A stretch of 32,942 bases of DNA from a bacterium (GTDB lineage Bacteria > Auribacterota > UBA3054 > JAPLST01), in contig JAPLST010000381.1 in assembly GCA_026398485.1 (NCBI GenBank), forward strand, positions 1 through 32,942, in the 5' to 3' direction. Below the pieces are notes generated by a model that saw only the letters and a program-made list of their open reading frames with translations, was not told the origin of the DNA and searched no databases. Position 1 is the stretch's first letter, and the number at the start of each line of letters is the position of its first letter. This document shows positions 4,125 through 32,834 of the stretch, piece by piece. A program made the position numbers and the translations under genes.

Positions 4125-5588
4125 ATGGCCCTCGTTTGTCCTTTCCTTCCCGGCCTTGAAACGACCCTGTGCGGTCGCGCGCGCGCGGCCACACTCCAAC
4201 GCATGCACACGCACGCGCAACGGCTGGGACGCGTCTCGCTTTCCCAACTTGAACACATCTTTGGCGCGCTCGTTCCCGCACGGCTGATCCAGCCCACGGC
4301 GTCAGGGCATCACAGCCGGCGGCGTCTGTTGAGCCTGCCGGTCATGTTCTGGGCGTTTCTCGCACAAACGCTTTCGCCACGCACGTCATGTCGCGAGGCA
4401 CTACGGAAAATCATCGCGTGGCGTGCGCGCCACGAACTGCCGCTGCTCAGTGCCAACACCGCCGCCTACTGCACGGCGCGCGTGCGCATGCCGCTCGCCA
4501 CGCTTGTCGCAGTGCATGACCACGTGGCGACCGCACTCGAACAGCGGGTGACGCATGACGAACGTTGGCATGGCCATCGCGTCTTGATTCCCGATGGCAC
4601 CGGCGTCTCCATGCCCGACACGCCCGCCAACCAAAAGTCCTTTCCGCAACCATCCGGTCAGAAAAAGGGCTGCGGGTTTCCGGTGGTCAAACTGGTCGCA
4701 CTGTACTCGCTCGCCAGTGGCGCGCTGATCGCGTGGGCGGAGGGAACATTACGCCAGCACGATGCCCGACTCTGGCGTGCGTTGTGGCAACGCCTGCGTC
4801 CGGGCGATGTCATTGTCGGTGATCGTGCTTTCTGCTCCTTCGCAATCTTGGCTGCCTTGGCCGCGCGCGAGGTTGCGTGTGTCGTGCGCCTCCATCAAGG
4901 TCGTGCGAAACCCCTGTTTAAAAAAGGAACGCGCGAATGCGTCGTCACCTGGCGCAAGCCGCAACGCTCCCCCGCATGGACGAAGCGTGACTGGCATGCA
5001 CTGCCGGAGTCTTGTGACGTGCGCATCATTAAGGTCGTCGTCGCCCAGACCGGCTTCAGAACGTGCGCGCTCTTACTTGCCACCACGCTGCTTGATCCCG
5101 TCGCCTATCCTGCCGATGATCTTGCCGAACTCTATTTGCGCCGTTGGGCGGTCGAACTCTTCTTCCGCGACATCAAAACCTCCCTGCGCATGGACGTGCT
5201 TTCCGGCAAATCGCCCGCCATGATCCGCCGCGAACTGTGTCTGTTTGCCATCGCCTACAATCTTGTGCGCGCGCTCATGCAGAAGGCGGCCCATACCTAT
5301 GCGCTCGACCTCACTCGTATCAGCTTCAAAGGTACCGTTGACACCCTCCGTCAATGGTGCGCCACCTGCGCCGACGCGCTCGCAAATCCGCGGCTCGGGC
5401 CGCGCCTGTATGCGCAACTCATCCACGTCATCGCCACCGACCGTGTCCCACTCCGCCCTGGCCGCACCGAACCACGCGCCGTCAAACGCCGTCCCAAATC
5501 ATACAAATTGCTCAACAAACCACGCCATCTAATCCATGTGCCAGCGCACCACAACCGTCCGAAACCACGTGCCCGTCGGCATCCTTAA
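4125..5588 (+). CDS. IS4-family DDE transposase
   Basis: A 487-aa cut-and-paste transposase. The first acidic residue is Asp157 in PDGTGV, the second Asp233 in VGDRAF, and the third Glu344 in the Y-(2)-R-(3)-E-(6)-K signature (Tyr337, Arg340, Glu344, Lys351), which defines the IS4 group. The N-terminal about 130 residues form the usual helical DNA-binding part. The ATG has a GGAG ribosome site at 4115-4118. The stop codon TAA lies inside the right inverted repeat, so gene and element end together. No frameshift or stop is seen, so the element should be active. Confidence 0.93.
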   Translation: MALVCPFLPGLETTLCGRARAATLQRMHTHAQRLGRVSLSQLEHIFGALVPARLIQPTASGHHSRRRLLSLPVMFWAFLAQTLSPRTSCREALRKIIAWRARHELPLLSANTAAYCTARVRMPLATLVAVHDHVATALEQRVTHDERWHGHRVLIPDGTGVSMPDTPANQKSFPQPSGQKKGCGFPVVKLVALYSLASGALIAWAEGTLRQHDARLWRALWQRLRPGDVIVGDRAFCSFAILAALAAREVACVVRLHQGRAKPLFKKGTRECVVTWRKPQRSPAWTKRDWHALPESCDVRIIKVVVAQTGFRTCALLLATTLLDPVAYPADDLAELYLRRWAVELFFRDIKTSLRMDVLSGKSPAMIRRELCLFAIAYNLVRALMQKAAHTYALDLTRISFKGTVDTLRQWCATCADALANPRLGPRLYAQLIHVIATDRVPLRPGRTEPRAVKRRPKSYKLLNKPRHLIHVPAHHNRPKPRARRHP

Positions 5589-9559: not shown

Positions 9560-10663
9560 ATGGCATTTGATGTCACTGGCGTGCTGCAAGTCACGGAAAA
9601 AGGCAACGGCATTTTGCGTGATGCCAGCCGCTCGTTCAAGCCCAGCGGCGCGGATGCCTACGTGCCCAATCACATGATGAAGTCACACCGGCTGGTGGAA
9701 GGCGCGCTGATCGTCGGGCATGCGCACAAGCGCAAGCATTCGATTGAAGTGCATGACATCACCACGATCTCGGGTTTGAAGCCGGATGATTTTGCGCGCC
9801 GGCCGCGCTTCACGCAACTGACGGCGGTGAATCCCAGTGAGCGCTTCAAGCTGGGCGTCACCGGCAATGTCACGATGCGGATCGTCGAGATGCTGGCGCC
9901 GATCGGCAAAGGCACGCGCGGCATGATTGTCTCGCCGCCCAAAGCCGGCAAAACCCTGCTGCTGGAAGCCCTGGCCAACTCGCTGCGGGCCTGCGAACCC
10001 AACGCGCGCATCATTGTCCTGCTGGTCGATGAGCGGCCCGAGGAAGTCACCCACTTCCGCCGCGCGGTCAATGCCGAAGTGCTGGCCAGCTCGAATGACC
10101 AGACTTATCTTGAGCATTGCTCCCTGGTTGAATTGACTTTGTCGCATGTGCGGGTCGAGCTCGAATGCGGCCGGCACGTGGTGGTTTTGATGGACAGCTT
10201 GACGCGCACGGCGCGCGCCTTCAACATCAAGGGCTCAGGCACCGGCCGCACCTTGAGCGGCGGCCTCGAAGCCGGCGCGCTCGAAATCCCGCGCCGCTTT
10301 TTCGGCCTGGCCCGCAATATCGAAAATGGCGGCTCGGTCACCATTGTCGCCACCGCCTTGGTCGAAACAGGCTCGCGCATGGACGACCTTATTTTCGAGG
10401 AATTCAAGGGCACCGGCAACAGCGAAATCGTGCTCGACCGGCGCTTGGCCGATTTGCGCATCTTCCCGGCCATCAATATCACCGCCAGCGGCACCCGCCG
10501 CGAAGAACAACTGTACGGGCCGGAAGATATCATGAAGGTGCACAAGCTGCGCCGGATGCTGATGGAGCACCCGCCCGATGCCGCCATGGCACTGCTCAAG
10601 AACTTGTGCGAAAAGTACCGCGACAACACCACCCTCCTGAATCAGCTCGCCGCCCGGCCATGA
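9560..10663 (+). CDS. rho: Transcription termination factor Rho, short form
   Basis: The 367-aa product is an RNA-dependent ATPase/translocase. Walker A is PPKAGKT (residues 126-132), Walker B is VVVLMD (207-212), and the C-terminal RecA-like core is fully conserved (LEIPRRFFGLARNIENGGS, EEFKGTGNSE, SGTRREE). Compared with E. coli Rho (419 aa) it lacks the N-terminal helix bundle and starts directly with the cold-shock RNA-binding domain. There, the RNP1-like strand GFGFLR of E. coli reads GNGILR (15-20), losing two aromatic RNA-stacking residues. A GGAG lies 10 bases before the ATG. The downstream gene overlaps by ATGA, forming a unit with the YkgJ and YhcH proteins. Confidence 0.95.
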   Translation: MAFDVTGVLQVTEKGNGILRDASRSFKPSGADAYVPNHMMKSHRLVEGALIVGHAHKRKHSIEVHDITTISGLKPDDFARRPRFTQLTAVNPSERFKLGVTGNVTMRIVEMLAPIGKGTRGMIVSPPKAGKTLLLEALANSLRACEPNARIIVLLVDERPEEVTHFRRAVNAEVLASSNDQTYLEHCSLVELTLSHVRVELECGRHVVVLMDSLTRTARAFNIKGSGTGRTLSGGLEAGALEIPRRFFGLARNIENGGSVTIVATALVETGSRMDDLIFEEFKGTGNSEIVLDRRLADLRIFPAINITASGTRREEQLYGPEDIMKVHKLRRMLMEHPPDAAMALLKNLCEKYRDNTTLLNQLAARP

Positions 10664-11582: not shown

Positions 11583-13886
11583 ATGGAAAAGAACTACTTC
11601 CTCGGCATTGATATTGGCTCGACCACGCTGAAAGCCGTCCTGCTGACGCGCAAAGGCAAAGTCCACCACACCTTGTATCGCCGCACGCGCGCGCTGCCGG
11701 ACGCGCTGCTCAGTTGTTCCGGCCTGTGCCATCGCTGCGGCGCCTGCAACTTCGGCGCACTCACCAAAACGGTCGATGTGTTTCTCGCCACCGCCGGGAC
11801 CGGCCGCAAAGATATTGCCGCCACGGTGGTGACCGGCAGTCAGATTGTGGACGAGCTGAAACGCTTCCTTGAGTATGACGCCTACGTCAGCGAAGTCTCG
11901 GCGCATGTCGCCGGCGCGCGGCATTACTATCCCGACTGCAAGGCCATTCTGGATGTGGGCGGGCAGGACAGCAAGGCGATGCTGTTCAACGAGCGCATGC
12001 AGATGTGGATGTCGAAGATGAGCGGCATTTGCGCGGCCGGCACGGGCGCCTTTCTCGACAGTGTCGCCGCCAAACTGGACGTGCCGGTCGAGGACATGGC
12101 CGAGCGCGTCAATTATGATTCCGAGCTGCAGGTGTCGTCGATTTGCGCGGTCTTGAGCGCCACCTCGGTCAACAAGTTCAAGAACCGGCATCCGCTCGGC
12201 GACGTGATTGCGGCGGCCTGCCGCGCGCAGGCGCGCACGGTCATGTCAGGCGTCGGTGAGATATTCCTGGACTACAAGGGTGATATTGTCTTCCAAGGCG
12301 GGGTAGCCTCGAATCGCGCGGTGGCCTATTACCTTAACCAGATTACCGGCAACAAAATTATCATTCCGGAATTCCACCAGGTCATGGGCGCGCTGGGCGC
12401 CGCCTGCCTGGCGCGCGATATGGCGGCCATGTCCGGCGCCAAGCACGCCGCGCTGCGCGTCTTCGACATCAAACCGCGCTTTCGCATCACCCTGCCCGAA
12501 TTTCACGACATCATTGACGCCGTCGGCGATGCCGGCCTGAAACGCGAAGTCTTCAAGCTGCGCGACAAGTTGATCGTGCGCAAGACGCCGGATGGCAAAG
12601 AGAAAATCGGCATTCCCGAATTCCAGCAAGTGCGCGATGCCTTCACCGATCCCAAACTCGCGCACGAATTCGGCAAACTGATTGAGCGCTTGACCGCGCG
12701 CTCGTCGATCAACAAGGCCGTCGCCCTGCGCACCAAATTCACGCGCAGCGACTTCCTTACGCGCGACGGCCGGCCGATGGTCTGGCGCAATCTGTTTTAC
12801 CCGGCCGAGCTGCTCAACGCGCTGGACGTGCGCATGCTGACGCTCGAAACCTACGCCGCCCTGCGCGGCCGCAGCCAGAAGAAGCTGCGTCATTTCTTCG
12901 ACCGCGCCGCCTGCAAGGGCTTCTCCGCTGAAACCTGCTCGTTCCTGCGCGTGCTCGAGGGCGACGAACTTTTGCCCAAGGCCGATTTCGCCGTGACCAC
13001 CACCGAGCCATGCCAGCAAGGCGAACGCATCTTTGCCGACCTGATCCGCTCGAACAACATCAGCGACCGCTACTACACGCTGCACACCCCGTTCCATCAT
13101 GACGAGCATGCCGTCGAGCAAATCGCGGCCGGCCTCGAAGAATCAACGCGGCGGATGGAGCGCGCGCTCAACCTGAAAATGGACATGGGCCGCCTGCGCT
13201 ATGCCTGCGAGGTATCCAACCAAGCCCGCGCCTACGCCATGAAATGCCATGAGCTGCGCAGCGTCAGCCCGCCGCTGATTCGCGGCGGCGAGTCGGTCAT
13301 GTTCGCCAACATGTTCTCCCAATTGTGGGGCAAGCCCGAAATGATCGAGCTGCAGCGGACGTTGCTCGAAGAACTCGAGGAGCGCCGCAGTCAGTTGCAT
13401 GACGTGGCCATTGGCGACACACACCGCCTGGCCTGGCTGCATTTGCCGCCCTTCTATAGCTCGCGCCTGATGGATTTCATTGAATTGACGTGCAATGCGC
13501 CGATTGTCAGTGAGGAAGTCAATTATGTCGGCTGGGACGAATTGAACCCGGACGAGCCCTACCGCAGTCTGGCGCGCAAGCTCCTGACAGTCGGCTTCCT
13601 CGACCCGCAACTGCGCGTGCAGCACATCTGCAACTATGCCGTCAAGGCCAAACTTGACGGCTGCATCCTGTACAGTCACATGTTCGGGCGCTGCTCGAGT
13701 GCCGACACTAGTTTCATCAAGCACTTGCGCGAAGAAATGCAGCAGGTGAATACGGCGCTGCTGGTGCTGGATGGCGACTGCCTGGATGAGACGACCGACC
13801 CGTGCAGCACGCAGACCAAGGTCAGCTCGTTTGTCGAGGCGCTCAACACCAAGAAATACGGCAATCTGTTCGGCTACCGCAAGTAA
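11583..13886 (+). CDS. 2-hydroxyacyl-CoA dehydratase activase fused to HgdB-like domain
   Basis: The 767-aa product starts with a BadF/BadG/HgdC-type ASKHA ATPase (residues about 5-280): phosphate-1 GIDIGSTTLKAV, phosphate-2 LDVGGQDSKA, and GGVASN. The two cluster-binding cysteines are present, Cys150 in GICAAGTG and Cys188 in SSICAVL; in activases they hold a [4Fe-4S] cluster between two subunits. After a linker (about 285-400), residues 400-767 resemble the HgdB/BcrB-type dehydratase component. The family injects an electron by ATP hydrolysis for difficult reductions or dehydrations. A cluster Cys45, 49, 52 and 55 near the N-terminus is not usual for HgdC. No partner dehydratase or CoA-transferase gene is adjacent, so the substrate is unknown. 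Confidence 0.85.
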   Translation: MEKNYFLGIDIGSTTLKAVLLTRKGKVHHTLYRRTRALPDALLSCSGLCHRCGACNFGALTKTVDVFLATAGTGRKDIAATVVTGSQIVDELKRFLEYDAYVSEVSAHVAGARHYYPDCKAILDVGGQDSKAMLFNERMQMWMSKMSGICAAGTGAFLDSVAAKLDVPVEDMAERVNYDSELQVSSICAVLSATSVNKFKNRHPLGDVIAAACRAQARTVMSGVGEIFLDYKGDIVFQGGVASNRAVAYYLNQITGNKIIIPEFHQVMGALGAACLARDMAAMSGAKHAALRVFDIKPRFRITLPEFHDIIDAVGDAGLKREVFKLRDKLIVRKTPDGKEKIGIPEFQQVRDAFTDPKLAHEFGKLIERLTARSSINKAVALRTKFTRSDFLTRDGRPMVWRNLFYPAELLNALDVRMLTLETYAALRGRSQKKLRHFFDRAACKGFSAETCSFLRVLEGDELLPKADFAVTTTEPCQQGERIFADLIRSNNISDRYYTLHTPFHHDEHAVEQIAAGLEESTRRMERALNLKMDMGRLRYACEVSNQARAYAMKCHELRSVSPPLIRGGESVMFANMFSQLWGKPEMIELQRTLLEELEERRSQLHDVAIGDTHRLAWLHLPPFYSSRLMDFIELTCNAPIVSEEVNYVGWDELNPDEPYRSLARKLLTVGFLDPQLRVQHICNYAVKAKLDGCILYSHMFGRCSSADTSFIKHLREEMQQVNTALLVLDGDCLDETTDPCSTQTKVSSFVEALNTKKYGNLFGYRK

Positions 13887-14401: not shown

Positions 14402-14430
14402 TTGAAAATTCGACTGAAATTTGGTACACT
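14402..14430 (+). promoter_or_regulatory. Promoter of the DUF6754/MutL operon
   Basis: TTGAAA (14402-14407), 17-bp spacer, TACACT (14425-14430), preceded by TTTGG. It is the only strong promoter seen before the seven-gene operon and has the same TGGTAnnnT form as two other promoters in the window. Confidence 0.6.
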
Positions 14431-14466: not shown

Positions 14467-14484
14467 ATGGAACTCTTGGGATAA
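14467..14484 (+). CDS. Five-codon leader ORF, coupled
   Basis: ATG-GAA-CTC-TTG-GGA-TAA (MELLG). It has its own AGGA ribosome site at 14455-14458, 8 bases upstream, and its TAA shares a base with the ATG of the next gene (TAATG). The best ribosome site therefore belongs to the mini-ORF, suggesting translational coupling. It could be chance. Confidence 0.4.
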   Translation: MELLG

Positions 14485-15251
14485 TGGAACACGCCAGCGC
14501 ACCAGTGATCATCTTGTTCGTGCTGTTTGCCGCATTCGTTTTGCTGCAAATCCAGCGCGCACGGCATGGCGCGCACATTTTCCTGCGGCGGATTGCCGGC
14601 CTCGAGGTGATTGACGACGCCATTGGGCGCGCGACCGAGCAGGATCGCCCGATCATGTTCAATCCCGGGCGCGATGATTTAAGTGTCAATTTGTTTTGCT
14701 CGCTGTCGGTGCTGGGCTATGTGACGCGCAAGGCGGCGAAATTGAACATGCCGGTGAACGTGCCGGTGTCGATGCCGCTGGCATACGCCATGGCCGAGGA
14801 ATATTGGAAAGACGCGTATGACGCGATGGGCCGCGGCGGGATGTTTGCGGTCGAGGACAACATCCGTTATTTGTCGGGCGATCAAAATGCGTTCGGCATG
14901 TCGTGCGCGGGCTGGATCAAGCGCGAGCGGATCGGCGCGAATCTTTTGTTTGGCTCGTACGGCTTTGAGGCGATGATCATCGCCGAGGCGGGTCAGCAGG
15001 CGGGTGCGATCCAGGTAGCCTGCACGCCGACGTTTTTCCAAGTGCCGTTTTTCATTGTCACCTGCGACTACACCGTCTTTGGCGAAGAATTCTACGCCGC
15101 CGGCGCCTATTTCAGCCATGACCCGGTGTTGACGGGCAGCCTGGCCGGGCAGGACTGGTGCAAACTGGTCGTGCTCGGTTTGATTGTGGCGGGCATCCTG
15201 GTGTTCACGCTGACGCAGCAGAACCTGCTGGCAAATCTCTTGTTGTGGTGA
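14484..15251 (+). CDS. DUF6754-like membrane protein
   Basis: A 255-aa protein with an N-terminal transmembrane helix (about 7-22), a soluble domain (about 30-222) and a C-terminal helix (about 226-246). Text such as FLRRIAGLEVIDDAIGRATE, RPIMFNPG, FGSYGFEAMIIAEAG, GAIQVACT, CDYTVFGEEFYAA and GSLAGQDW matches what I recall of the DUF6754 family; this was not searched. No enzymatic motif is recognised. It is the first gene of a seven-gene operon; its stop overlaps the next start (TGATG). Confidence 0.75.
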   Translation: MEHASAPVIILFVLFAAFVLLQIQRARHGAHIFLRRIAGLEVIDDAIGRATEQDRPIMFNPGRDDLSVNLFCSLSVLGYVTRKAAKLNMPVNVPVSMPLAYAMAEEYWKDAYDAMGRGGMFAVEDNIRYLSGDQNAFGMSCAGWIKRERIGANLLFGSYGFEAMIIAEAGQQAGAIQVACTPTFFQVPFFIVTCDYTVFGEEFYAAGAYFSHDPVLTGSLAGQDWCKLVVLGLIVAGILVFTLTQQNLLANLLLW

Positions 15252-17095
15252 TGAGCAAGCGCGGCGCATTAAAACTGTTGGCGTTCCTGGTTGGACTGTA
15301 CTTCGTGCTGGAGTATGTCCTGCCGGAAAAGCTGGGCGGGGATTTTGACAGCTATGAAGTGCGTGCGCCGGCCGGTTGTGTGCTGGGCACGAACACGCTG
15401 GCATTTTATGTCGGGCATTACCGTGCGGAGCAGTGCGGGATCGGGCGCCTGGTGCAAAGTGGCGCGAGCGGCACGTGGACGCGCACGCCGAACCAGCCGG
15501 TGCTGCAACCAGCGCTGTTTCAGGCGCACGAGCGCTATGGCATGAGCCAATTGGCGGTGCAGGCCAACGGTTCCGAGCTGACCATGGTGTATCTCGGCAA
15601 GAACATGCAACGCGAGCCGGTGCTGTGTTATGCGACGAGTGGCGACACGGGCCTGACGTGGCGGCGGCACGGGCCGGTGGTATTTTCTACCAACGGGCAC
15701 TATTGGTCATCGCATGAATATCCGAATGGCGACGTGCCGGGCGCCATTCAGTGGTATGCGGCGCAGTACCACGAGGGCTTGTGGCGGATGGCGCTGATCT
15801 GTGCGACCAAGGGCTTGGTGCTGGCGCAGGGGCCGACGCTGACGAACATGACGCTGCAGCCGACGGTGCTGCAGAGCATCGCGCAACTGCCGCTGGGGAT
15901 CACGGCGTTTGACGCGCGGCTGGTGTCGAATCAGTGGCGCGGGTATTTCGTGGCCGAGGGCCGGCTGCGGGTGCAGGACTTGGCGGACGGCGTGGACCAA
16001 ATGGACACAGTGGACTTGGTGGACAAAGACATCTGCGCGTACCGGCTGGGGCCGCGCGCGGACGAGGCGCTGATCTGCGTTGAGCGCGCGTCGGCGACGG
16101 CCCGCGCACCGGAGCAAGCGCCGGTGCTGACGGAATTGTATTGTGCGCCGGCGCGCTTGACGAGCACCGGGACGCTGATAAAATCGGTCGGCGCGCAAGG
16201 CCGGCCGACGTATCTGACCCGCGGGATCAAGTGGGCCGGCGACTTCACCATGATTGTCGGCGGGTTTGCCGTGTTCATGGCGGTGATCAATCTGTTTTTG
16301 TATCACAGCAAGCGGATTGCGCAGCGCCAGCCGGGCCTGCACAACAGCGTCCTGTTTTTCGTTTTTGCGGTGGTCATGGGCGTCTTCACTTTTTTTGGCA
16401 ACAAGCCGGGCGAGTATGGCACGCAGATTATTATGCGCGCGCCGACGCCGGCGGCGGTCGCACTGGAAGCGGCCCTGAAAAAGAGCATGTTGCAGGCGTT
16501 CACCACGCTGACCAATATCAATGACAAGCGCGTCACGGTCGAGGTGTGCTTGCAGCAGCAGGAGACGACCGTGACGGGCGCGTTGCTGCATGTGCGCTAC
16601 ATCGGTATATTTCCGGCGGCGCAACGCGCGCAGGTGCTGCCGCAACTGCGGGCCGCGGTGGCGAGCCAGGCCCGGATTGATGCGCGGGCGGTGCAGGTTG
16701 ATTGTGCGCCGGATGTGATGAAGACCGGGTTTGATTTTGTGTTCAAGGCGTTTCTGGTGCCGTTGGGGATCGCGACGTTTTCGACGATCACGTTTTACAT
16801 GATCAGCGCGGCGTATCGGGCGTTCAAGATCCGCTCGGCGGAAGCGGTTTTGCTGATGGTGGCGGCGTTTATCGTGATGATCGGGCAGTTGCCGCTGGGC
16901 GCGTGGCTGACGCATGGATTGCCGGACAATGTCTTCTTCCTGCAGCTGCCGTGGCTGGCGCAAAAGCTGTTGATGGTGGCCAATTCATCGGCGTTTCGCG
17001 GAGTGCTGATCGGAATCATGATCGGCGGCTTGGCGGCCGGCCTGCGCATCTGGCTGGGCATGGACGAGAGCGTCTATGCGGGGCTGGATAAATAA
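15251..17095 (+). CDS. Large membrane protein with propeller-like ectodomain
   Basis: A 614-aa protein. One helix (8-24) is followed by a soluble region (25-325) containing a perfect Asp-box, SGDTGLTW (residues 130-137), the S-x-D-x-G-x-T-W motif of sialidase-like beta-propellers. Two helices (331-350, 366-383) flank the return. A second soluble domain (385-495) and three more helices (about 498-522, 532-548, 583-600) follow. No catalytic sialidase residues can be assigned. The start overlaps the previous stop by one base, so it is coupled. It is likely a structural partner of the DUF6754-like protein. Confidence 0.75.
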   Translation: MSKRGALKLLAFLVGLYFVLEYVLPEKLGGDFDSYEVRAPAGCVLGTNTLAFYVGHYRAEQCGIGRLVQSGASGTWTRTPNQPVLQPALFQAHERYGMSQLAVQANGSELTMVYLGKNMQREPVLCYATSGDTGLTWRRHGPVVFSTNGHYWSSHEYPNGDVPGAIQWYAAQYHEGLWRMALICATKGLVLAQGPTLTNMTLQPTVLQSIAQLPLGITAFDARLVSNQWRGYFVAEGRLRVQDLADGVDQMDTVDLVDKDICAYRLGPRADEALICVERASATARAPEQAPVLTELYCAPARLTSTGTLIKSVGAQGRPTYLTRGIKWAGDFTMIVGGFAVFMAVINLFLYHSKRIAQRQPGLHNSVLFFVFAVVMGVFTFFGNKPGEYGTQIIMRAPTPAAVALEAALKKSMLQAFTTLTNINDKRVTVEVCLQQQETTVTGALLHVRYIGIFPAAQRAQVLPQLRAAVASQARIDARAVQVDCAPDVMKTGFDFVFKAFLVPLGIATFSTITFYMISAAYRAFKIRSAEAVLLMVAAFIVMIGQLPLGAWLTHGLPDNVFFLQLPWLAQKLLMVANSSAFRGVLIGIMIGGLAAGLRIWLGMDESVYAGLDK

Positions 17096-17097
17096 AA

Positions 17098-17130
17098 ATT
17101 TGAGATTTGAAATTTGAAATCTGAAATTCA
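17098..17130 (+). repeat. TTTGAAAT heptamer-type low-complexity repeat
   Basis: ATTTGAGATTTGAAATTTG followed by AAATCTGAAATTC, an AT-rich near-tandem of 7-mers, is the only spacer over 10 bp within the first part of the operon. Such intergenic repeats are familiar from PVC genomes. Confidence 0.6.
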
Positions 17131-17133
17131 AGC

Positions 17134-18009
17134 ATGAGTGCAACACGGGCAAATATGTTCTGGCAGCGGGTTTTGTACTGCGATCCGCGGATCCTGTACG
17201 CGCTGTTTGCGTGCCTGGTGGTGTTGTGCGAGTTCTGGCGGCCGCGCATGCCCGTGCCGATACCGCCGGCGGCGCGCAAGCTGTATGACTTGGTCGAGCG
17301 CCTGCCGCAGGACAAGCTGGTGATCATTGATTGCGAGCTGGCGGCCAGCATTCGCGCCGAATGCGAAGGGCAGTTCGTCGCGGTCGTGCGGCATTTGTTC
17401 AGACGCAACCTGCCGTTTGCCATCATGATGTGGACGACCCAGCCGGAAGGCATCAAGTTTGGCACCGACATCGCGATGAAACTGGCGCAGGAAAACGGCA
17501 AGGAATACGGGCGTGATTTTGTGATCTGGAATGCGATTACACCGCCGCCGGCGGGGGGCGCGATGTTGCAGGCCTTTTCCAAGGACATCCCGGGCATGAT
17601 CCAGAACGACATTTTCGGCACGCCGCTGGCGAAGATTGGCTGCATGCGCGGCGTCCAGGACATTTCCGACATCTCCTTGATATTCAAAGTGTCGTATGTC
17701 TGGAATCGCGCGGAAGTGCCGTGGATCGGCTTTGTGCAGAGCGTGTACGGCACGCCCTACGCCGCCGGCTGCGTGGCAATTCAAAGCTCGGATGCCTATC
17801 CGTATGTGGACGCGGGCCAGATCAGCGGGCTGTTGGCGGGCGCAGCGGGCGCGGCGGCGTATGAGCGTTTGCTGAACGCGCCAGGGATTGGCACGGCGAC
17901 GGTGAGCGTGCAGTCGTTTGCGGCCCTGTTCGTCTTTGTCGCGATTGTGTGCGGTAACATTGCGATGCTGATGTTGCGCGCGACGAGTGAGCCGGAGGCC
18001 GCGGCATGA
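17134..18009 (+). CDS. Membrane-anchored protein of unknown function
   Basis: A 291-aa protein with a helix at about 17-35, a soluble domain (about 40-250) and a C-terminal helix (about 258-281), the same N-TM/domain/C-TM plan as the 14484 product. The conserved-looking block DKLVIIDCELAASIRAECEGQ, then LPFAIMMWTTQPEG, and a Gly/Ala-rich AGQISGLLAGAAGAAAYE segment suggest a Rossmann-like or DUF6754-related fold, but I cannot name it. The stop overlaps the next start (ATGA). Confidence 0.7.
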   Translation: MSATRANMFWQRVLYCDPRILYALFACLVVLCEFWRPRMPVPIPPAARKLYDLVERLPQDKLVIIDCELAASIRAECEGQFVAVVRHLFRRNLPFAIMMWTTQPEGIKFGTDIAMKLAQENGKEYGRDFVIWNAITPPPAGGAMLQAFSKDIPGMIQNDIFGTPLAKIGCMRGVQDISDISLIFKVSYVWNRAEVPWIGFVQSVYGTPYAAGCVAIQSSDAYPYVDAGQISGLLAGAAGAAAYERLLNAPGIGTATVSVQSFAALFVFVAIVCGNIAMLMLRATSEPEAAA

Positions 18010-18806
18010 CCTACAATCGCAAACGCCAAATCGCGGCGGCCGTGCTGGTGCTGGTGACGGCCGCACTGGTCGCCAATGAAGTGCGCCTGCTGGTGACGGA
18101 TCCGGAGTACGACTGGTATCTGCGGATCCAGCGCTGGATTGCGGCGGTCTGCACGATGGCGATTTACACGTTTCTCTACCGCGAGAATCCGTTTTACCGC
18201 GCGTTCGAGCATGTGCTGCTGGGCGGCGCGACCGGGATGGGTTGCGCGGTCATTGTCCGGCAGCAATTGATTGACAAATGGTTTGCGCCGATGGTGCAAG
18301 GATTTCGTGACTGGTTCACGACCGGCATGACGCCCGAGGCGTTGAGCGGCGTCCTGTTGATTGTGCCGGGCATTGTCGGGCTGATGTGGTATTTCCAGTA
18401 CAGCAAGCGCTGGTTCTGGCTGAGCCGGATCACGTTCTGCATCACGCTGGGCGCCGGCGTCGGCCTGGGCTTCAAGGACACGTTCAACCAATTGCTGCCG
18501 CAGATCACCGAGACGTTCAAGCCGCTGTGGGTGGGCGCGCGGATTGAGCCGGGCTTGAGTTTGCTGGCGCGGGTCAGCCTGAGTTTTGAGAACATCATTT
18601 TCATCACCGGCACGATTTCGGTGCTGATGTATTTTTTCTTTGTCTTCGAGCGCAAGCATTTTGTGATCAAAGGACCGGCGCAATTGGGGCGCTGGTATTT
18701 GATGGTGGCGCTGGGCGCGTTTTTTGGGAACACGTTCATGACGCGCCTGAGCGCGCTGATTGAGCGCGTGCATTTCCTGGTGGCGGAGTGGCTGCAATGG
18801 GGATGA
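18006..18806 (+). CDS. Polytopic membrane protein, unknown
   Basis: A 266-aa protein with about seven hydrophobic segments (roughly 8-25, 44-58, 68-84, 117-134, 138-157, 196-217, 224-242). No recognisable motif for transport or catalysis. It overlaps the preceding gene by ATGA and lies in the MutL operon. The likely role is as a membrane-core subunit of the operon's complex. Confidence 0.7.
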   Translation: MTYNRKRQIAAAVLVLVTAALVANEVRLLVTDPEYDWYLRIQRWIAAVCTMAIYTFLYRENPFYRAFEHVLLGGATGMGCAVIVRQQLIDKWFAPMVQGFRDWFTTGMTPEALSGVLLIVPGIVGLMWYFQYSKRWFWLSRITFCITLGAGVGLGFKDTFNQLLPQITETFKPLWVGARIEPGLSLLARVSLSFENIIFITGTISVLMYFFFVFERKHFVIKGPAQLGRWYLMVALGAFFGNTFMTRLSALIERVHFLVAEWLQWG

Positions 18807-18812
18807 CAAGAA

Positions 18813-18842
18813 TGGGACCTATAGGACGGATGCGACCTATGC
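18813..18842 (+). repeat. GGACCTAT low-complexity repeat
   Basis: TGGGACCTATAGGACGGATG, then CGACCTATGC. It lies in the 46-base gap between two operon genes. GGACCTAT-type arrays are another PVC-style intergenic repeat. Confidence 0.5.
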
Positions 18843-18852
18843 GGAGCGGCAC

Positions 18853-19140
18853 ATGACGATGCAGACCGTACTGAGCGAGGCGGAACGCACGGCGCTGATC
18901 GAGCGCATTGCGCGCTGGGCGGTGCGCTACGGGCTGGGCGCGATTGTCGCCTTTCTGTTTGAGATCAACCGGCCGCTCGGGTTGCTGACCGGGCAGACCT
19001 GCATTGCCTGCGCGCCCTTGATTAATGCGGGTTTTCCCTGGCCGGTGCATCAATTTGGCCTGTTGCTGCAAGACAATGCGGCGCTCCGGCAATTGCAGGC
19101 ACGCATGGAGGAGTTGGCACATGCCGACGCGCACGCCTGA
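18853..19140 (+). CDS. Small protein with one hydrophobic segment
   Basis: A 95-aa protein. The start at 18853 is set by GGAG at 18843-18846. Residues about 23-60 contain hydrophobic GLGAIVAFLFEINRPLGLL and a CIAC pair. The C-terminus is a helical, Leu/Gln-rich tail (ALRQLQARMEEL). Its last codons overlap the start of the MutL gene by 20 bases, which argues for tight coupling and perhaps direct contact with the ATPase. Not recognised as any known family. Confidence 0.65.
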   Translation: MTMQTVLSEAERTALIERIARWAVRYGLGAIVAFLFEINRPLGLLTGQTCIACAPLINAGFPWPVHQFGLLLQDNAALRQLQARMEELAHADAHA

Positions 19141-20935
19141 GTACGAGGTTTTGTTGGCGACCGACTGCGGCAGCACGACCACCAAGGCGATTCTGGTCGA
19201 GCACACGCCGGACGGCTATCGCCTGGCCGGGCGCGGTGAAGCGCCCACGACGGTCGAGGCGCCCTTTGATGATGTGACGGTCGGCGTGCGCAATGCGGTC
19301 GAGGAGCTTGAGGAGATCAGCGGGCGCACGCTGCTGGAGGACGGGGTGCTGATCTGCCCGCGGCGCGGGGCGGCGGGTGTCGACGCATATTTTTCGACCA
19401 GCAGCGCGGGCGGCGGGCTGCAGATGGCGGTGATGGGCATCATTGGGTCGATTTCCGCGCAAAGCGCGCAGCGCGCGGCGCTGGGCGCGGGCGCGATTGT
19501 GATTGACAGCATTTCGATTGACGATCCGCGCGAAGACCACGAGCGGGTCGAGCGCTTGCGCCACATCCGCCCGGATATGATCTTGATGGCGGGCGGGATC
19601 AATGGCGGGACGCGCCGGCACGTGGAGATGCTGGCCGAGATTATCCGCGCGGCGCGGCCGCAGCCGCGCTTTGGCGAGACCTACCGCCTGCCGGTCATTT
19701 TCGCCGGCAACACCGGCGCGCGCGACGTGGTGACCAACATGCTGGAGAGCGTGGCCGCCGTGCGCTTTGTCGCGAATGTGCGGCCGGAGCTGGCGCGCGA
19801 GGATGTGCATGAGGCGCGCCATGCGATTCATGAATTGTTTCTCGAACACGTGATGCAGCAGGCGCCGGGCTATGGCAAGTTGATGAAGATGACCTCGGCC
19901 GACATCATGCCGACGCCGACGGCGGTGGGCGTGATCATCCAGCAAGTGGCGGCGGAGCGCGCGCAAAACGTGCTGGCGGTTGACATTGGCGGCGCGACGA
20001 CGGACGTGTTCAGCGTTTTTGACGGGCAATTCCATCGCACGGTCAGCGCCAATTACGGGATGAGCTACAACATTTGCAATGTGATGGCGGAGGCCGGCGT
20101 GGCGAACATCCAGCGCTGGCTGCCGTTTCCGTTTGCGGCCGCGACGCTGCGCGACATTTTGCGCAACAAGATGATCCGGCCGACGACGATCCCGGAGACG
20201 CGCGAGGAGTTGTTCATTGAGCAGGCGGCGGCGCGCGAGGCGTTGCGCTTGTCGTTGATCCATCACCGCCAGCTCGCGCTGCATTTGCGCGGCACGTCGA
20301 AGCAGCGCGATTTCAGCGACGCGTTTGTGATGGACGAGCTCAGCGTGGTGAACTTGATGAAACTGGATTTGTGCATTGGCAGCGGCGGCGTATTGTCGCA
20401 CGCGCCGGACCGGGCGCAGAGCGCGCTGATGATGCTGGATGCGTTTCAGCTGGAAGGCGTGACACAGCTGGCGGTTGACAGCATCTTCATGATGCCGCAA
20501 CTGGGCGTGATGTCGCAATTGTGCCCGACGGCGGCGCGCGAGGTGTTTGCCCACGATTGCATGGTGATGCTGGGCACGGCCATTGCGCCGGTGGGTACGG
20601 CCAAGCCGGGTGCGCGCGTGCTGCAGGTGACGATTGAGACGGAAGACGGGCGGCGGGACGAGCGCACGCTGGTGTGCGGCGACCTGCAGCGGCTGGCACT
20701 GGCGCCGGGCACGACGGCCCGGGTACTGCTGCGCCCGTATGGAAAATTTGATGTCGGCGCGGGCCCCGGCAAGGAGCGCGCGATCGTGGCGCAGGGCGGC
20801 ACGGTCGGGTTGATTCTCGACGGGCGCGGGCGGCCGTTGCCGTTCAGCGCGCAGATGGCCGACAACGCGACGCGGCGGCGCGCGGATGCGCAAGCAATGG
20901 ACTTGCTGGCGCCGGGCGAAACGGTGACAAGCTGA
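19121..20935 (+). CDS. MutL/GlmL-type ASKHA ATPase
   Basis: The 604-aa product matches the family annotated as glutamate mutase L (not mismatch-repair MutL). Phosphate-1 is TDCGSTTTKAIL (residues 14-25), phosphate-2 is AVDIGGATTDVFSV (286-299), and the adenosine loop is CIGSGGVLSHAP (418-429). LICPRRGAAGV (78-88) and SSAGGGLQM (94-102) are family-typical blocks. In clostridia GlmL is proposed to service the B12-dependent glutamate mutase GlmS/GlmE; neither is present here. Instead the gene lies between membrane-protein genes, so I infer a chaperone-like or energising role in that complex. GGAGGAG precedes the ATG at 19121 by 7 bases. Soluble, cytosolic. Confidence 0.88.
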   Translation: MPTRTPEYEVLLATDCGSTTTKAILVEHTPDGYRLAGRGEAPTTVEAPFDDVTVGVRNAVEELEEISGRTLLEDGVLICPRRGAAGVDAYFSTSSAGGGLQMAVMGIIGSISAQSAQRAALGAGAIVIDSISIDDPREDHERVERLRHIRPDMILMAGGINGGTRRHVEMLAEIIRAARPQPRFGETYRLPVIFAGNTGARDVVTNMLESVAAVRFVANVRPELAREDVHEARHAIHELFLEHVMQQAPGYGKLMKMTSADIMPTPTAVGVIIQQVAAERAQNVLAVDIGGATTDVFSVFDGQFHRTVSANYGMSYNICNVMAEAGVANIQRWLPFPFAAATLRDILRNKMIRPTTIPETREELFIEQAAAREALRLSLIHHRQLALHLRGTSKQRDFSDAFVMDELSVVNLMKLDLCIGSGGVLSHAPDRAQSALMMLDAFQLEGVTQLAVDSIFMMPQLGVMSQLCPTAAREVFAHDCMVMLGTAIAPVGTAKPGARVLQVTIETEDGRRDERTLVCGDLQRLALAPGTTARVLLRPYGKFDVGAGPGKERAIVAQGGTVGLILDGRGRPLPFSAQMADNATRRRADAQAMDLLAPGETVTS

Positions 20936-20944
20936 CGGCTATAC

Positions 20945-22060
20945 ATGGGTTCCGCATTTACACCAGGATTGATTGTCAGCGATCATGTGCTGATCCGCAA
21001 GGCGCGCCGGCTGCCGGTCAAGGGCCGGGTGGTGGTTGACGTTGGCGCGCAAGTCGTGGCCGACACGGTGATTGCGCAGGTGAATTTACCGGGGACGCTG
21101 GCGGTGGTGAAAGCGGCGCCGCAGTTGGGTTGTCCGGCAGACCGGGTCAAGCATTATTGCCTGGTGCAAGAAGGCGCGCCGGTGCGCAAGGCGCAGGTGC
21201 TGTGCGAGCGCAAGACGCTGTTTGGCCTGATGACCAATCGCGCGGCAAGTCCGATTGACGGGACGGTCGAGTACATCTCGGCCTTGTCCGGCAACATGGG
21301 GGTGCGCGGCAAGCCGAAGCCGATTGTATGCACGGCCTACCTGAGCGGCACGGTGGTTGAAGTGCTGCCGGAAGAGGGCGTGGTGGTGGAGGCGGAAGGC
21401 GCGCTGATCCAGGGCATTTTCGGCGTGGGCGGCGAGCAGCACGGGCAGATCCAATGGGTGGAAACCGGCGCGCGCGTGCTGACGGCCGAGCACCTGACGC
21501 CGGTGATGCAGGGCCAGATCATCGTGTGCAACGCGCGCATTGCGGCGTCGGCCCTGCAGGCGGCAGTCACGCTGCGGCTGGCCGGGCTGGTGGGCGCCAG
21601 CATCATTGATGCGGAACTGATGACCTTTCTCGGTTTTGACATCGGTGTGGCGGTGACCGGCGATGAGAATATTCCGTTCAGTGTGATGGTGACCGAGGGC
21701 TTTGGCGAACTGGCCATGCCGGCGCGCACGTGCCAGCTTTTGCAGACGCTGTCGGGGCGCATGGCGGCGATGAATGGCGCCACCCAGATCCGGGCCGGAG
21801 TCATTCGCCCGGAGCTGATTGTTCCGGGTGCGCAGACGACGCAGACCGCGCGGGTAATCAGTCATGAGTTGGGCGTGGGCACGCCCGTGCGCTTGATCCG
21901 CCGGCCGCATTTTGGCGCGCTGGGCAAGGTGTGCGCGCTGCCCGAGCAAGCCGTCAAAATCGAGACTGGCTCGCTGGTGCGCGTGGCGATCATCACGCTG
22001 GCGGATGGCCGGCAGGTGACCGTGCCGCGCGCGAATCTCGAGATCGTCAGCGCGCTGTAG
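20945..22060 (+). CDS. Barrel-sandwich (lipoyl-like) protein with KOW-like C-terminal domain
   Basis: A 371-aa soluble protein. Residues about 20-165 look like barrel-sandwich/RnfC-type beta hairpins (SPIDGTVEYIS, GTVVEVLPEEGVVVEAEGAL). The middle contains IQGIFGVGGEQHG (about 155-167) and a segment with ILTAEHLTP-like text. The last 60 residues (GTPVRLIRRPHFGALGKV ... DGRQVTVPRANLEIV) resemble a KOW/SH3-like domain of the NusG type. No lipoyl- or biotin-attachment Lys motif is visible. It begins 9 bases after the ATPase stop without a good ribosome site, implying coupling. It is the last gene of the operon; function unknown. Confidence 0.72.
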   Translation: MGSAFTPGLIVSDHVLIRKARRLPVKGRVVVDVGAQVVADTVIAQVNLPGTLAVVKAAPQLGCPADRVKHYCLVQEGAPVRKAQVLCERKTLFGLMTNRAASPIDGTVEYISALSGNMGVRGKPKPIVCTAYLSGTVVEVLPEEGVVVEAEGALIQGIFGVGGEQHGQIQWVETGARVLTAEHLTPVMQGQIIVCNARIAASALQAAVTLRLAGLVGASIIDAELMTFLGFDIGVAVTGDENIPFSVMVTEGFGELAMPARTCQLLQTLSGRMAAMNGATQIRAGVIRPELIVPGAQTTQTARVISHELGVGTPVRLIRRPHFGALGKVCALPEQAVKIETGSLVRVAIITLADGRQVTVPRANLEIVSAL

Positions 22061-22391
22061 TTCCGGCCTTTTTGCACAAATTCAGCGCCGGCATTCCACC
22101 AACAATCCACCAGTTATCCACCACGTTTGCGGCGTGGTTGTCAAGATATTGTGGCTGATGCGGCACGCGCACCCATGATATGGAAGCGGCTGGTGCAACG
22201 CGAAAAACGCGCGCGCAACACTTGCAATTGCACGCCGGATTTGGTATAGTAGACAAGCTCTATTTTGTTTGCGCAGTTGATAGTGCGGTTTGTGATTTGG
22301 AATTCGGGCATCAACAGACATTGATGATTGCACTAGCATTGCGCGCAGGCATGGAGCCGCGTCGCAGTCACTTGTTGATGGAGTAATTGTT
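22061..22391. other. Intergenic and leader region upstream of bamA
   Basis: No gene is supported. It contains a weak hairpin (ACCACG/CGTGGT near 22119-22140) that may end the MutL operon, then the bamA promoter at 22222-22250 and a leader of about 135 nt. Confidence 0.55.
22222..22250 (+). promoter_or_regulatory. Promoter of bamA unit
   Basis: TTGCAA (22222-22227), 17-bp spacer, TATAGT (22245-22250), preceded by TTTGG. It resembles the promoters at 11485 and 14402. The long leader (about 135 nt) could hold regulatory structure. Confidence 0.6.
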
Positions 22392-30385: not shown

Positions 30386-30414
30386 ATTGTAGCACAGGCG
30401 CGCGGGAAGGTCAA
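30386..30414 (-). promoter_or_regulatory. Promoter of the UvrC-like gene, leaderless
   Basis: On the minus strand TTGACC (30409-30414), 17-bp spacer, TACAAT (30386-30391). The ATG at 30378 is 7 bases beyond the -10, about at the expected transcription start. The -35 overlaps the stop of the upstream gene. Confidence 0.6.
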
Positions 30415-32834
30415 ATGAAAAGGTTGACGTTGCCGCTCTCGGCACTGTGCAAATAGGCCGCCACGCCGCCGACCTCGACGTCGTCGAGTAGCTCTTCGCG
30501 GGTAATACCCATCACGTCCAGCGACATGGTGCAGGCGACCAGCCGCACGCCGGCCGCGCGCGCACTGGCGATCAAGGCCGGCAGCGAGTCCACGTGCTTG
30601 CGGCGCATCACCCATTTGATCATGGCTGCACCCAGGCCGCCCATGTTCATTTTCGAGAGTTGCAGGCGGGCCGCGCCGCGCGGCATCATCATGCCAAACA
30701 TGCGGTCGAGCAGCGGCTTGCGCACGGCCACGCGCTGCGGCTTGCGAATGATGTTCAAACCCCAGAAGGTAAAGAAAAGGGTGACGGAACTGCCCATCGC
30801 GGCGGCGCCGTTGGCAATAATAAACGCCGCCATGGCCTTGTCGAAATCGCCACTGAAGACCACAATGGTTTTGTTTTTTGCGAGCGTGGTGACGGTGGTA
30901 GCGGCGGCTGGTGCGGGCGCCGCGGCGCGCTTCTGAATCAAGGCCGTGATAACCCCTTTGTCGTGCGTGACCGAGACAAGTTGCTGGCCAACACTGGCGC
31001 ACCAGCCGGCGATGTCCTTGGCAAAGCCACAATCGCTGGCCAGCACTTTAAGGCATTGGCCCGGCTGCATGGTATCCAGGGCTGCCTTGACGCGCATGAT
31101 CGGCCCGGGGCATTGCAGGCCGCAGGCATCCAGCGTGATGTCGGACTTGTCGGACGAGTCAGACCTGTCGGACAACTGTGCGGCGGCCGGCGCGTGCGGC
31201 GTCGCTGCCACGTAGGTCAGATAGCCGCCGGATAAATTGCGGCAGGCTATCCCGTGCTGCATTAGCACGCGGCAGGCCAGATAGGCGCGCACGCCGGATC
31301 GGCAATAGACCAGATATTCTTTGTCGCGATCCACTTCGGCGAGGCGCCCGCGCAGCTCATCCACGGGAATGCTGATGGCCTGCGGGATCATGCCGGCGGC
31401 GACCTCCTCGGCTTCGCGCACATCCAGAACCACTTGCTTGGCCTGCGGGTTCACTATCTCCGCGACATGGCACAGCCGCACATCGCCGTGCATCACGTTG
31501 GCGGCGACAAAGCCGGCGTAATTGACCGGATCCTTGGCCGAGCCAAACGGCGGGGCATAGCATAATTCAAGATCCTCAAGGTCGTAGACTGAAAGGCCGG
31601 CGCGCAGGGCCGTGGCGAGCACGTCAATGCGTTTGTCAACGCCATCCATGCCGACCGCTTGGGCGCCGAGCAGCGCGCCGCTTTCTGGATCAAACACAAT
31701 TTTGAGCGTCAGCGTATGCGCGCCGGGATAATAGCCGGCATGACTGTTGGGATGAATCGTGACGGTTTCACAGCGGCGGTTGAGGCGCGTGAGCGCCTTT
31801 TCACTGGCGCCGGTCATGCCGACGGCGAGGTCGAACACTTTGCAGATCGCAGTGCCTTGCGTGTTCTTGTAGGTGCGCGGACGACCGCAGATGTTGTCGG
31901 CGGCGATGCGGCCCTGGCGGTTGGCCGGGCCGGCCAGTGGAAGCAGCGTGGCGGTTGCGGTGACAAAATCAGTCACTTCAACGGCGTCGCCCACGGCGTA
32001 GATGTGCGGATCACTGGTGCGCATATGCGCGTCGACGGCGATGCCGCCACGCGCGCCGATGGTCAGACCCGCGGCGCGCGCCAGGCCGGCGTCGGGCCGC
32101 ACACCGATGGCCAGCACGACCAGGCCGCAGGTCAGCGTTTCGCCAGTGCTAAGGCTGACGACCAACGCGCCAGCCTGCGCGGCAAAGCCGGTCACGGACG
32201 TTTGTAGCCGGAGTTCCACGCCGTTGCGCAGCAGTTCGTCGTGCAGCGGCGCGGCAATCTCCGGATCGGCCGGGCTCATCACTTGCGCCGCCAGCTCGAC
32301 CAGCGTGACGCGCACATTGCGGGCGCGCAGCGCCTCGGCCATTTCCAATCCGATGTAGCCGCCGCCAACCACGACGGCATGTGCCGGCGTTTCTTCATCA
32401 ACAATCTTTTTGATGGCGTCCATGTCCTCAAGCGTGCGCAGCGTCTTGACCTGCGGCAGGTCAATGCCGGGCAGCGGCGGGCGGATCGGCGCGGCGCCCG
32501 GACTGAGCACCAGCGCGTCGTAGGATTCCGTGTAGGTGTGATTGCGGACGAGGTCGCGCACGGTCACCGACTTGGCGGCGCGATCAATGGAAGTGACCTC
32601 GTTGCGTACGCGCACGTCAAGGTGCAGGTGGGCATGCAGTGATTCCGGCGTCTGCACCAGCAGGCGGTCACGGTCGGCGATGGCGCCGCCGATATGATAC
32701 GGCAGGCCGCAATTGGCAAACGAGACATGCGGGCCGCGCTCAAAAAGAATGATCTCGGCCTGTTCGTCAAGGCGGCGGGCGCGCGCGGCAGCGGACGCGC
32801 CACCGGCAACCCCGCCAACAATAAGGATCTTCAT
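30411..32834 (-). CDS. CoA-disulfide reductase-rhodanese-TusA-DsrE2 fusion
   Basis: The 807-aa product has four domains. Residues 1-450 are an FAD/NAD(P) disulfide oxidoreductase of the CoA-disulfide reductase type (GGVAGGASAAARARR, SFANCGLPY with Cys42, VVVGGGYIGLEMAEAL, IYAVGDAVE). About 460-545 are a rhodanese (DVREAEEVAAGMIPQA, active Cys511 in VYCRSGVRAYL). 566-635 are TusA-like (DACGLQCPGP; Cys575 in CPxP). 655-807 are DsrE2-like (VACTMSLDVMGI, Cys768). Such chains pass sulfane sulfur from cysteine to cysteine and reduce persulfides or CoA disulfides. Residues 555-565 (SDRSDSSDKSD) form a repeat-encoded linker. The start overlaps the ArsR-type stop (ATGA). Confidence 0.92.
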   Translation of the reverse strand: MKILIVGGVAGGASAAARARRLDEQAEIILFERGPHVSFANCGLPYHIGGAIADRDRLLVQTPESLHAHLHLDVRVRNEVTSIDRAAKSVTVRDLVRNHTYTESYDALVLSPGAAPIRPPLPGIDLPQVKTLRTLEDMDAIKKIVDEETPAHAVVVGGGYIGLEMAEALRARNVRVTLVELAAQVMSPADPEIAAPLHDELLRNGVELRLQTSVTGFAAQAGALVVSLSTGETLTCGLVVLAIGVRPDAGLARAAGLTIGARGGIAVDAHMRTSDPHIYAVGDAVEVTDFVTATATLLPLAGPANRQGRIAADNICGRPRTYKNTQGTAICKVFDLAVGMTGASEKALTRLNRRCETVTIHPNSHAGYYPGAHTLTLKIVFDPESGALLGAQAVGMDGVDKRIDVLATALRAGLSVYDLEDLELCYAPPFGSAKDPVNYAGFVAANVMHGDVRLCHVAEIVNPQAKQVVLDVREAEEVAAGMIPQAISIPVDELRGRLAEVDRDKEYLVYCRSGVRAYLACRVLMQHGIACRNLSGGYLTYVAATPHAPAAAQLSDRSDSSDKSDITLDACGLQCPGPIMRVKAALDTMQPGQCLKVLASDCGFAKDIAGWCASVGQQLVSVTHDKGVITALIQKRAAAPAPAAATTVTTLAKNKTIVVFSGDFDKAMAAFIIANGAAAMGSSVTLFFTFWGLNIIRKPQRVAVRKPLLDRMFGMMMPRGAARLQLSKMNMGGLGAAMIKWVMRRKHVDSLPALIASARAAGVRLVACTMSLDVMGITREELLDDVEVGGVAAYLHSAESGNVNLFI
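31140..31176 (-). repeat. In-frame 9-bp repeat encoding SD-rich linker
   Basis: Four imperfect repeats of the GTCGGAC/GTCAGAC type encode LSDRSDSSDKSD, the linker between rhodanese and TusA domains. The array reads like the intergenic GACGAGTC microsatellites of PVC genomes captured inside a gene. Confidence 0.5.

Follow-up and report, generated by a model that had tools for sequence, protein, structure and literature searches.

A membrane protein quartet conserved together with a putative ASKHA ATPase module in diverse bacteria

Contig JAPLST010000381.1 of the Auribacterota assembly GCA_026398485.1 was analyzed over a stretch of 32,942 nt, hereafter the window. Positions 14484–22060 of its forward strand hold seven co-directional genes, which overlap or lie no more than 46 bp apart and which we term A to G in their order (Table 1). 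A and B overlap by TGATG, C and D by ATGA, and E and F by 20 bp, while gaps of 38, 46, and 9 bp follow B, D, and F, respectively. Homologues of each of the seven open reading frames (ORFs) recur with unchanged gene order in distantly related genomes; as judged by this comparison, they are real genes and no chance ORFs. An initial annotation had described the same seven-gene layout and placed it under “one clear promoter”. A consensus site is indeed present upstream of A, but it agrees with only 9/12 consensus positions and is 1 of 6 such matches in the scan, against 2.4 ± 1.9 expected, and hence plausible rather than clear as the operon promoter. Since a second promoter-like site (22222–22250) lies between G and the adjoining bamA gene (22392), bamA is probably a transcription unit of its own. 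No known noncoding RNA or riboswitch was found in the window.

Table 1. Features of the seven-gene operon in the window (TM, transmembrane helix; AF2, AlphaFold2 model).
Feature	Position	Strand	Basis
Promoter-like site, TTGAAA-17-TACACT, TG before second hexamer	14402–14430	+	Consensus scan only
A: DUF6754 protein, TM + cytosolic alpha/beta domain + TM, 255 aa	14484–15251	+	PF20539, AF2, topology
B: N-terminal TM, ~340-aa ectodomain with Asp-box, polytopic core, 614 aa	15251–17095	+	
C: TM + extracytoplasmic alpha/beta domain + TM (N-in, C-in), 291 aa	17134–18009	+	AF2, charge bias
D: polytopic membrane protein, 266 aa	18006–18806	+	
E: small ATPase-module protein, 95 aa	18853–19140	+	
F: putative MutL-family ASKHA ATPase, 604 aa	19121–20935	+	PF13941
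G: cytosolic barrel-sandwich + middle domain + C-terminal KOW-like domain, 371 aa	20945–22060	+	RnfC_N/NQRA_N, KOW

Among the membrane proteins A–D, hereafter the quartet, A belongs to the DUF6754 family, as had been annotated (PF20539; E-value 1.7e-76, 257.2 bits against a cut-off of 27, profile positions 11–252 of 257). B, C, D, and E have no credible family match in Pfam or NCBIfam. The AF2 models of A (pLDDT 95.7, pTM 0.88) and C (pLDDT 92.8, pTM 0.89) both place an alpha/beta domain between two TM helices, yet in opposite topologies: charge bias across homologues (98 in the case of C) locates the domain of A in the cytosol and that of C outside. The N-out topology of A follows from homologues that carry an N-terminal signal sequence and an FN3-like sequence (loci L026, L028, L033, and L112; in L026 with a lipobox-like LSGC), the FN3-like part being judged by eye and without Pfam match. 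Homology between A and C was rejected (profile comparison probability 5.8%). Neither model matched a PDB fold at an E-value of 0.001 or below, with only loose Rossmann-like matches at TM-scores of about 0.35 or less, and sequence searches found no solved relative of A, C, D, or F. The predicted Asp-box of B is present as a single canonical motif read from the sequence, SGDTGLTW (residues 130–137; 15638–15661). The conserved core of B is its C-terminal polytopic part, to which the Asp-box ectodomain was added in the window's clade, a subset of the homologues.

F falls, likewise as annotated, into the MutL family (PF13941; E-value 1.2e-113, 380.7 bits against a gathering cut-off of 27, residues 44–512 of a 636-aa ORF). 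Over 24 homologues, its phosphate-1 and phosphate-2 motifs DCGSTTTK and DIGGATTD are at least 80–90% conserved and 165 columns reach at least 90% conservation, which places F among the most conserved proteins of the system. We infer that F is an ASKHA ATPase that has kept its phosphate motifs and would hydrolyze ATP. The barrel-sandwich and KOW-like nature ascribed to G was confirmed mainly through its relatives. G of the window matches weakly to biotin/lipoyl (E-value 0.0017), NqrA_N (0.1), and NusG KOW (0.14) domains; among its homologues, 16/20 match RnfC_N (best 4.8e-8), 9/20 NQRA_N (best 8.2e-8), and 2/20 KOW. F and G are fused into proteins of ~920–940 aa as paralogues in four genomes (G072, G077, G098, and G099). 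Fermentibacteria contain up to four paralogous F–G fusions per genome (L115–L122), mostly without an adjoining quartet and frequently in the vicinity of genes for two-component systems or secreted proteins.

To survey the system, 22 loci were taken around PF20539 matches. GTDB contigs searched with a profile of A gave at least 476 relatives, of which 80 were kept; iterated profiles then gave 118 A genes in 103 loci. Record names stem mostly from metagenome-assembled genomes (MAGs); loci and genomes carry L and G labels, G000 being the genome of the window. PF20539 occurs in 19 of the 59 genomes searched and in none of 14 well-known control genomes. In 108 of the 118 cases, B, C, and D come after A in this fixed order; among the ten exceptions, six are truncated by a contig edge, and L023 shows the rotated order B-C-D-A. 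Quartets span more than 12 deep bacterial lineages, with carrier record titles naming Armatimonadota, WOR-3/Stahlbacteria, Zixibacteria, Edwardsbacteria, Eisenbacteria, Poribacteria, Planctomycetota, Dadabacteria, Binatia, Coatesbacteria, Latescibacterota, Fermentibacteria, a Bdellovibrionales MAG, and Fermentithermobacillaceae (Bacillota). The near-fixed gene order across many phylum-level lineages, together with the conservation of F, implies that the system must do something important.

E, F, and G behave as a second module, whose position relative to the quartet varies (EFGABCD, ABCDEFG, EABCDFG, or elsewhere in the genome). The gene directly before F is usually E, which precedes A instead where F-G sits elsewhere. 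An eighth component, H, of ~150 aa and usually with two TM, shows a weak match to a bacterial PH domain (E-value 0.036). Of 46 loci with E, 28 have H directly before it (e.g., L078:5857–6324); H was never found without E, and none was seen beside the operon of the window. The proposed system is thereby refined in two respects: its seven genes fall into two modules, and an eighth component lies outside this operon.

The two modules occur together. In the first set of 59 genomes, 19 hold both A and G, one G only, and 39 neither; a marginal G match in G031 (4.5e-4) was scored absent, and the G-only case is a contig-edge match in a 76%-complete genome. Among 38 further genomes of the phylum of G050, 14 hold both, 22 neither, and two are discordant, and even inside one family (f37) the joint presence is patchy. 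Pooled, A and G stand together in 33 of the 36 genomes holding either (Fisher p 2.2e-22, uncorrected for phylogeny). Moreover, G is present in 40 of 41 other named quartet-bearing genomes. Homologues scattered without common order or co-occurrence, which would have spoken against a shared system, were looked for and not encountered. Together with the fixed order, the fusions, and the co-inheritance described below, this strongly supports the annotated notion of one conserved membrane/ATPase system without described function.

Several quartets may share one ATPase module. Two or three quartets stand in tandem, as ABCDABCD(ABCD), in nine loci (L033, L047, L052, L067, L068, L071, L074, L098, and L099), and a single G accompanies four quartets in G026 and three each in G050 and G052. 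The pairwise distances of A, B, C, and D correlate (r 0.76–0.86), as shared ancestry alone would also produce. A better internal control is the agreement of paralogues: in multi-quartet loci, A and another member of the quartet (B, C, or D) point to the same nearest paralogue in 491 of 750 comparisons, where chance would give 342. By this measure, quartets are inherited as units. In L016 and L019, which represent one lineage, the operon reads EFG-A-B-C-C-C-D-C; these four C paralogues suggest that C can form a hetero-oligomer. With three to four quartets per EFG and four C genes in one operon, the “stoichiometric complex” derived initially from the gene overlaps is not supported. The genome of the window itself contains a second EFGABCD operon (L013, on G000:C421), in which the C gene is seemingly split by a frameshift that may be an assembly error.

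As judged by sequence, two subunit folds, domain content, and the literature searched, the system lies outside every described one; what is already known are the single domains MutL, barrel-sandwich, KOW, and Asp-box. A is a member of DUF6754, a family without described function, and neither DUF6754 nor PF20539 is mentioned in the literature searched, with subscription journals outside the search. None of A–E, G, and H has a described role. Anti-phage defense was considered and rejected, as none of the seven proteins matches PADLOC-DB at an E-value of 0.01 or below. ABC transporters with FtsX-type permeases (MacB, LolCDE) resemble the system in that an ATPase drives transmission to an extracytoplasmic domain, and a divergent F-G pair ends an operon of FtsX permease, ABC ATPase, and FtsX permease in an apparently Omp85-lacking Bacillota (L126:8452–14516). 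F, however, belongs to the ASKHA class and not to the P-loop ATPases, and A–D match no FtsX, MacB, or ABC permease family. In Group II energy-coupling factor (ECF) transporters, one energizing module is common to several membrane units. The likeness to these is in the way of working only, without sequence relation and with another ATPase class.

We lean, at confidence somewhat short of even, toward an inner-membrane complex of a new kind that is energized by an ASKHA ATPase and does envelope work. A, B, C, and D would form one membrane complex with B and D as its polytopic core, in which a conserved alpha/beta domain of A faces the cytosol and one of C the periplasm; the A proteins of many lineages would add a periplasmic FN3-like part. 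F may act via the adaptor G, to which it is fused in some paralogues, aided by E and often by H, and would act from the cytosol to drive or reset the quartet, the likeliest point of contact being the cytosolic domain of A. With coupling thus running through G and A, ATP-driven changes could pass via B/D to C, whereby an envelope component would be moved or assembled. The probable setting would be envelope or outer-membrane biogenesis, and quartets served by one EFG would differ in substrate. A further-reaching proposal, which we put forward with greater reserve, is a primary-active envelope machine of a new class: an ATPase of the ASKHA (actin/Hsp70) fold and a barrel-sandwich adaptor may power a four-subunit inner-membrane complex by which an envelope component is moved or inserted. 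A single motor would serve several paralogous complexes, and the system would be widespread in uncultured diderm phyla and absent from the usual model organisms. If F does drive the quartet, ATP would here power a membrane engine of another type than ABC, ECF, P-type, and PilM systems. Even without the mechanism, several hypothetical families and one DUF become a single testable complex.

The link to the outer membrane comes from the genomic surroundings. Besides the adjoining bamA of the window, L018, L021, and L035, of the same phylum, contain an orthologous quartet oriented divergently to skp-skp-lpxD-lpxC, with fabZ-lpxA in addition in L018 and L021 (L035 is truncated by its contig edge), and in L025, likewise of this phylum, a gene pair for Omp85 and a DUF748/AsmA-like protein lies ~1 kb downstream of D. 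About three such contexts contrast with ~0.2 by chance, a rough estimate for ~225 kb of flanks and two loci per 3-Mb genome. Omp85 itself is present in 49 of 51 carrier genomes. Several points weigh against the envelope machine and its outer-membrane setting. As L018, L021, and L035 are orthologous, the contexts amount to ~3 independent cases in one phylum, that of the window, and in other phyla the neighbors are mostly housekeeping genes (e.g., glmU and prs), with no outer-membrane gene recurring. Two carriers of the Fermentithermobacillaceae lack both Omp85 and LpxC, so that the function is not strictly bound to the outer membrane and strict specificity for it was rejected; both also carry extra F-G pairs, one of them being the pair in the FtsX-ABC-FtsX operon. 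A link to lipopolysaccharide synthesis was likewise rejected, since relatives that lack the system have LpxC just as often. In addition, shared phylogeny inflates the p-value of co-occurrence.

Three other explanations have to be set against the envelope machine. The system might be a structural or regulatory assembly and no transporter, in which F, comparable to PilM or FtsA, would be an actin-like ASKHA scaffold or part of an envelope sensor that organizes the inner membrane, with C and the A and B ectodomains sensing the envelope. Such a role would suit the ASKHA fold, the varying extracytoplasmic additions (an Asp-box domain on B, FN3-like sequence on A), the lack of transporter family matches, and the genes for a STAS-like protein and a SpoIIE-GAF phosphatase that follow D in L018, L021, and L035. 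However, F and the membrane proteins match none of the PilM, PilN, FtsA, and MreB families, nor do any of A–G match PilM, PilN, PilO, or Gsp families in Pfam or NCBIfam. F is closest to the MutL/hydantoinase branch, and tandem diverged quartets with a common EFG fit substrate diversification better, which leaves this role unlikely.

The membrane reductase that the initial annotation had offered beside an envelope apparatus appears improbable. Here, the system would be a redox enzyme coupled to ATP or ions: F would act like a BadF-type activase and energize electron transfer into the reductase, to which G would dock in the manner of RnfC in Rnf and NqrA in Na+-NQR. The barrel-sandwich domain of G is of the RnfC/NqrA type, F is an ASKHA protein, and two polytopic subunits and one with an extracytoplasmic domain recall the Rnf layout. 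Nevertheless, a reductase is disfavored, as conserved Fe-S cysteine motifs occur in none of the families: A has one conserved cysteine, B, C, D, E, and G have none, and no cysteine cluster occurs in any family of A–G. In the scanned members of C, D, and G, no Rnf-Nqr, FMN_bind, SLBB, or Fe-S Pfam domain was matched, and unlike Rnf and Na+-NQR the operon contains an ATPase and no flavin motif. PF13941 also differs from the BadF family; BcrAD_BadFG was not found in F, only CoA_E_activ at an E-value of 0.1. We regard it as very improbable that F is GlmL, the chaperone or reactivase of a B12-dependent aminomutase, in a cobalamin-enzyme service operon with which the membrane genes merely travel. 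F does share the PF13941 domain and the ASKHA phosphate motifs with the GlmL/MutL accessory proteins of glutamate mutase and ornithine 4,5-aminomutase (NF040745, NF040744), but it stays under every NCBIfam cut-off (195.4 bits against 475 for the GlmL equivalog, 139 against 204 for glmL_fam). Instead of having a mutase partner, F-G goes with the quartet, and F has a conserved C-terminal extension. No glutamate or ornithine mutase subunit gene forms a recurring neighbor cluster in the 103 loci, in which rare neighbors were not all annotated, and the literature searched on glutamate mutase/MutL contained nothing relevant to the system.

Several further genes of the window deserve mention. A 767-aa fusion of a BadF/BcrA-type activase with HGD-D (2-hydroxyacyl-CoA dehydratase) is encoded 0.6 kb upstream of the operon (11583–13886); it was rejected as a member of the system, beside which it was not found elsewhere. 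A Rho-like protein of only 367 aa comprises an RNA-binding and an ATPase domain (9560–10663). An 807-aa multidomain protein (30411–32834) resembles CoA-disulfide reductase and combines Pyr_redox, rhodanese, TusA, and DsrE domains, and a 487-aa DDE_Tnp_1 transposase lies at 4125–5588.

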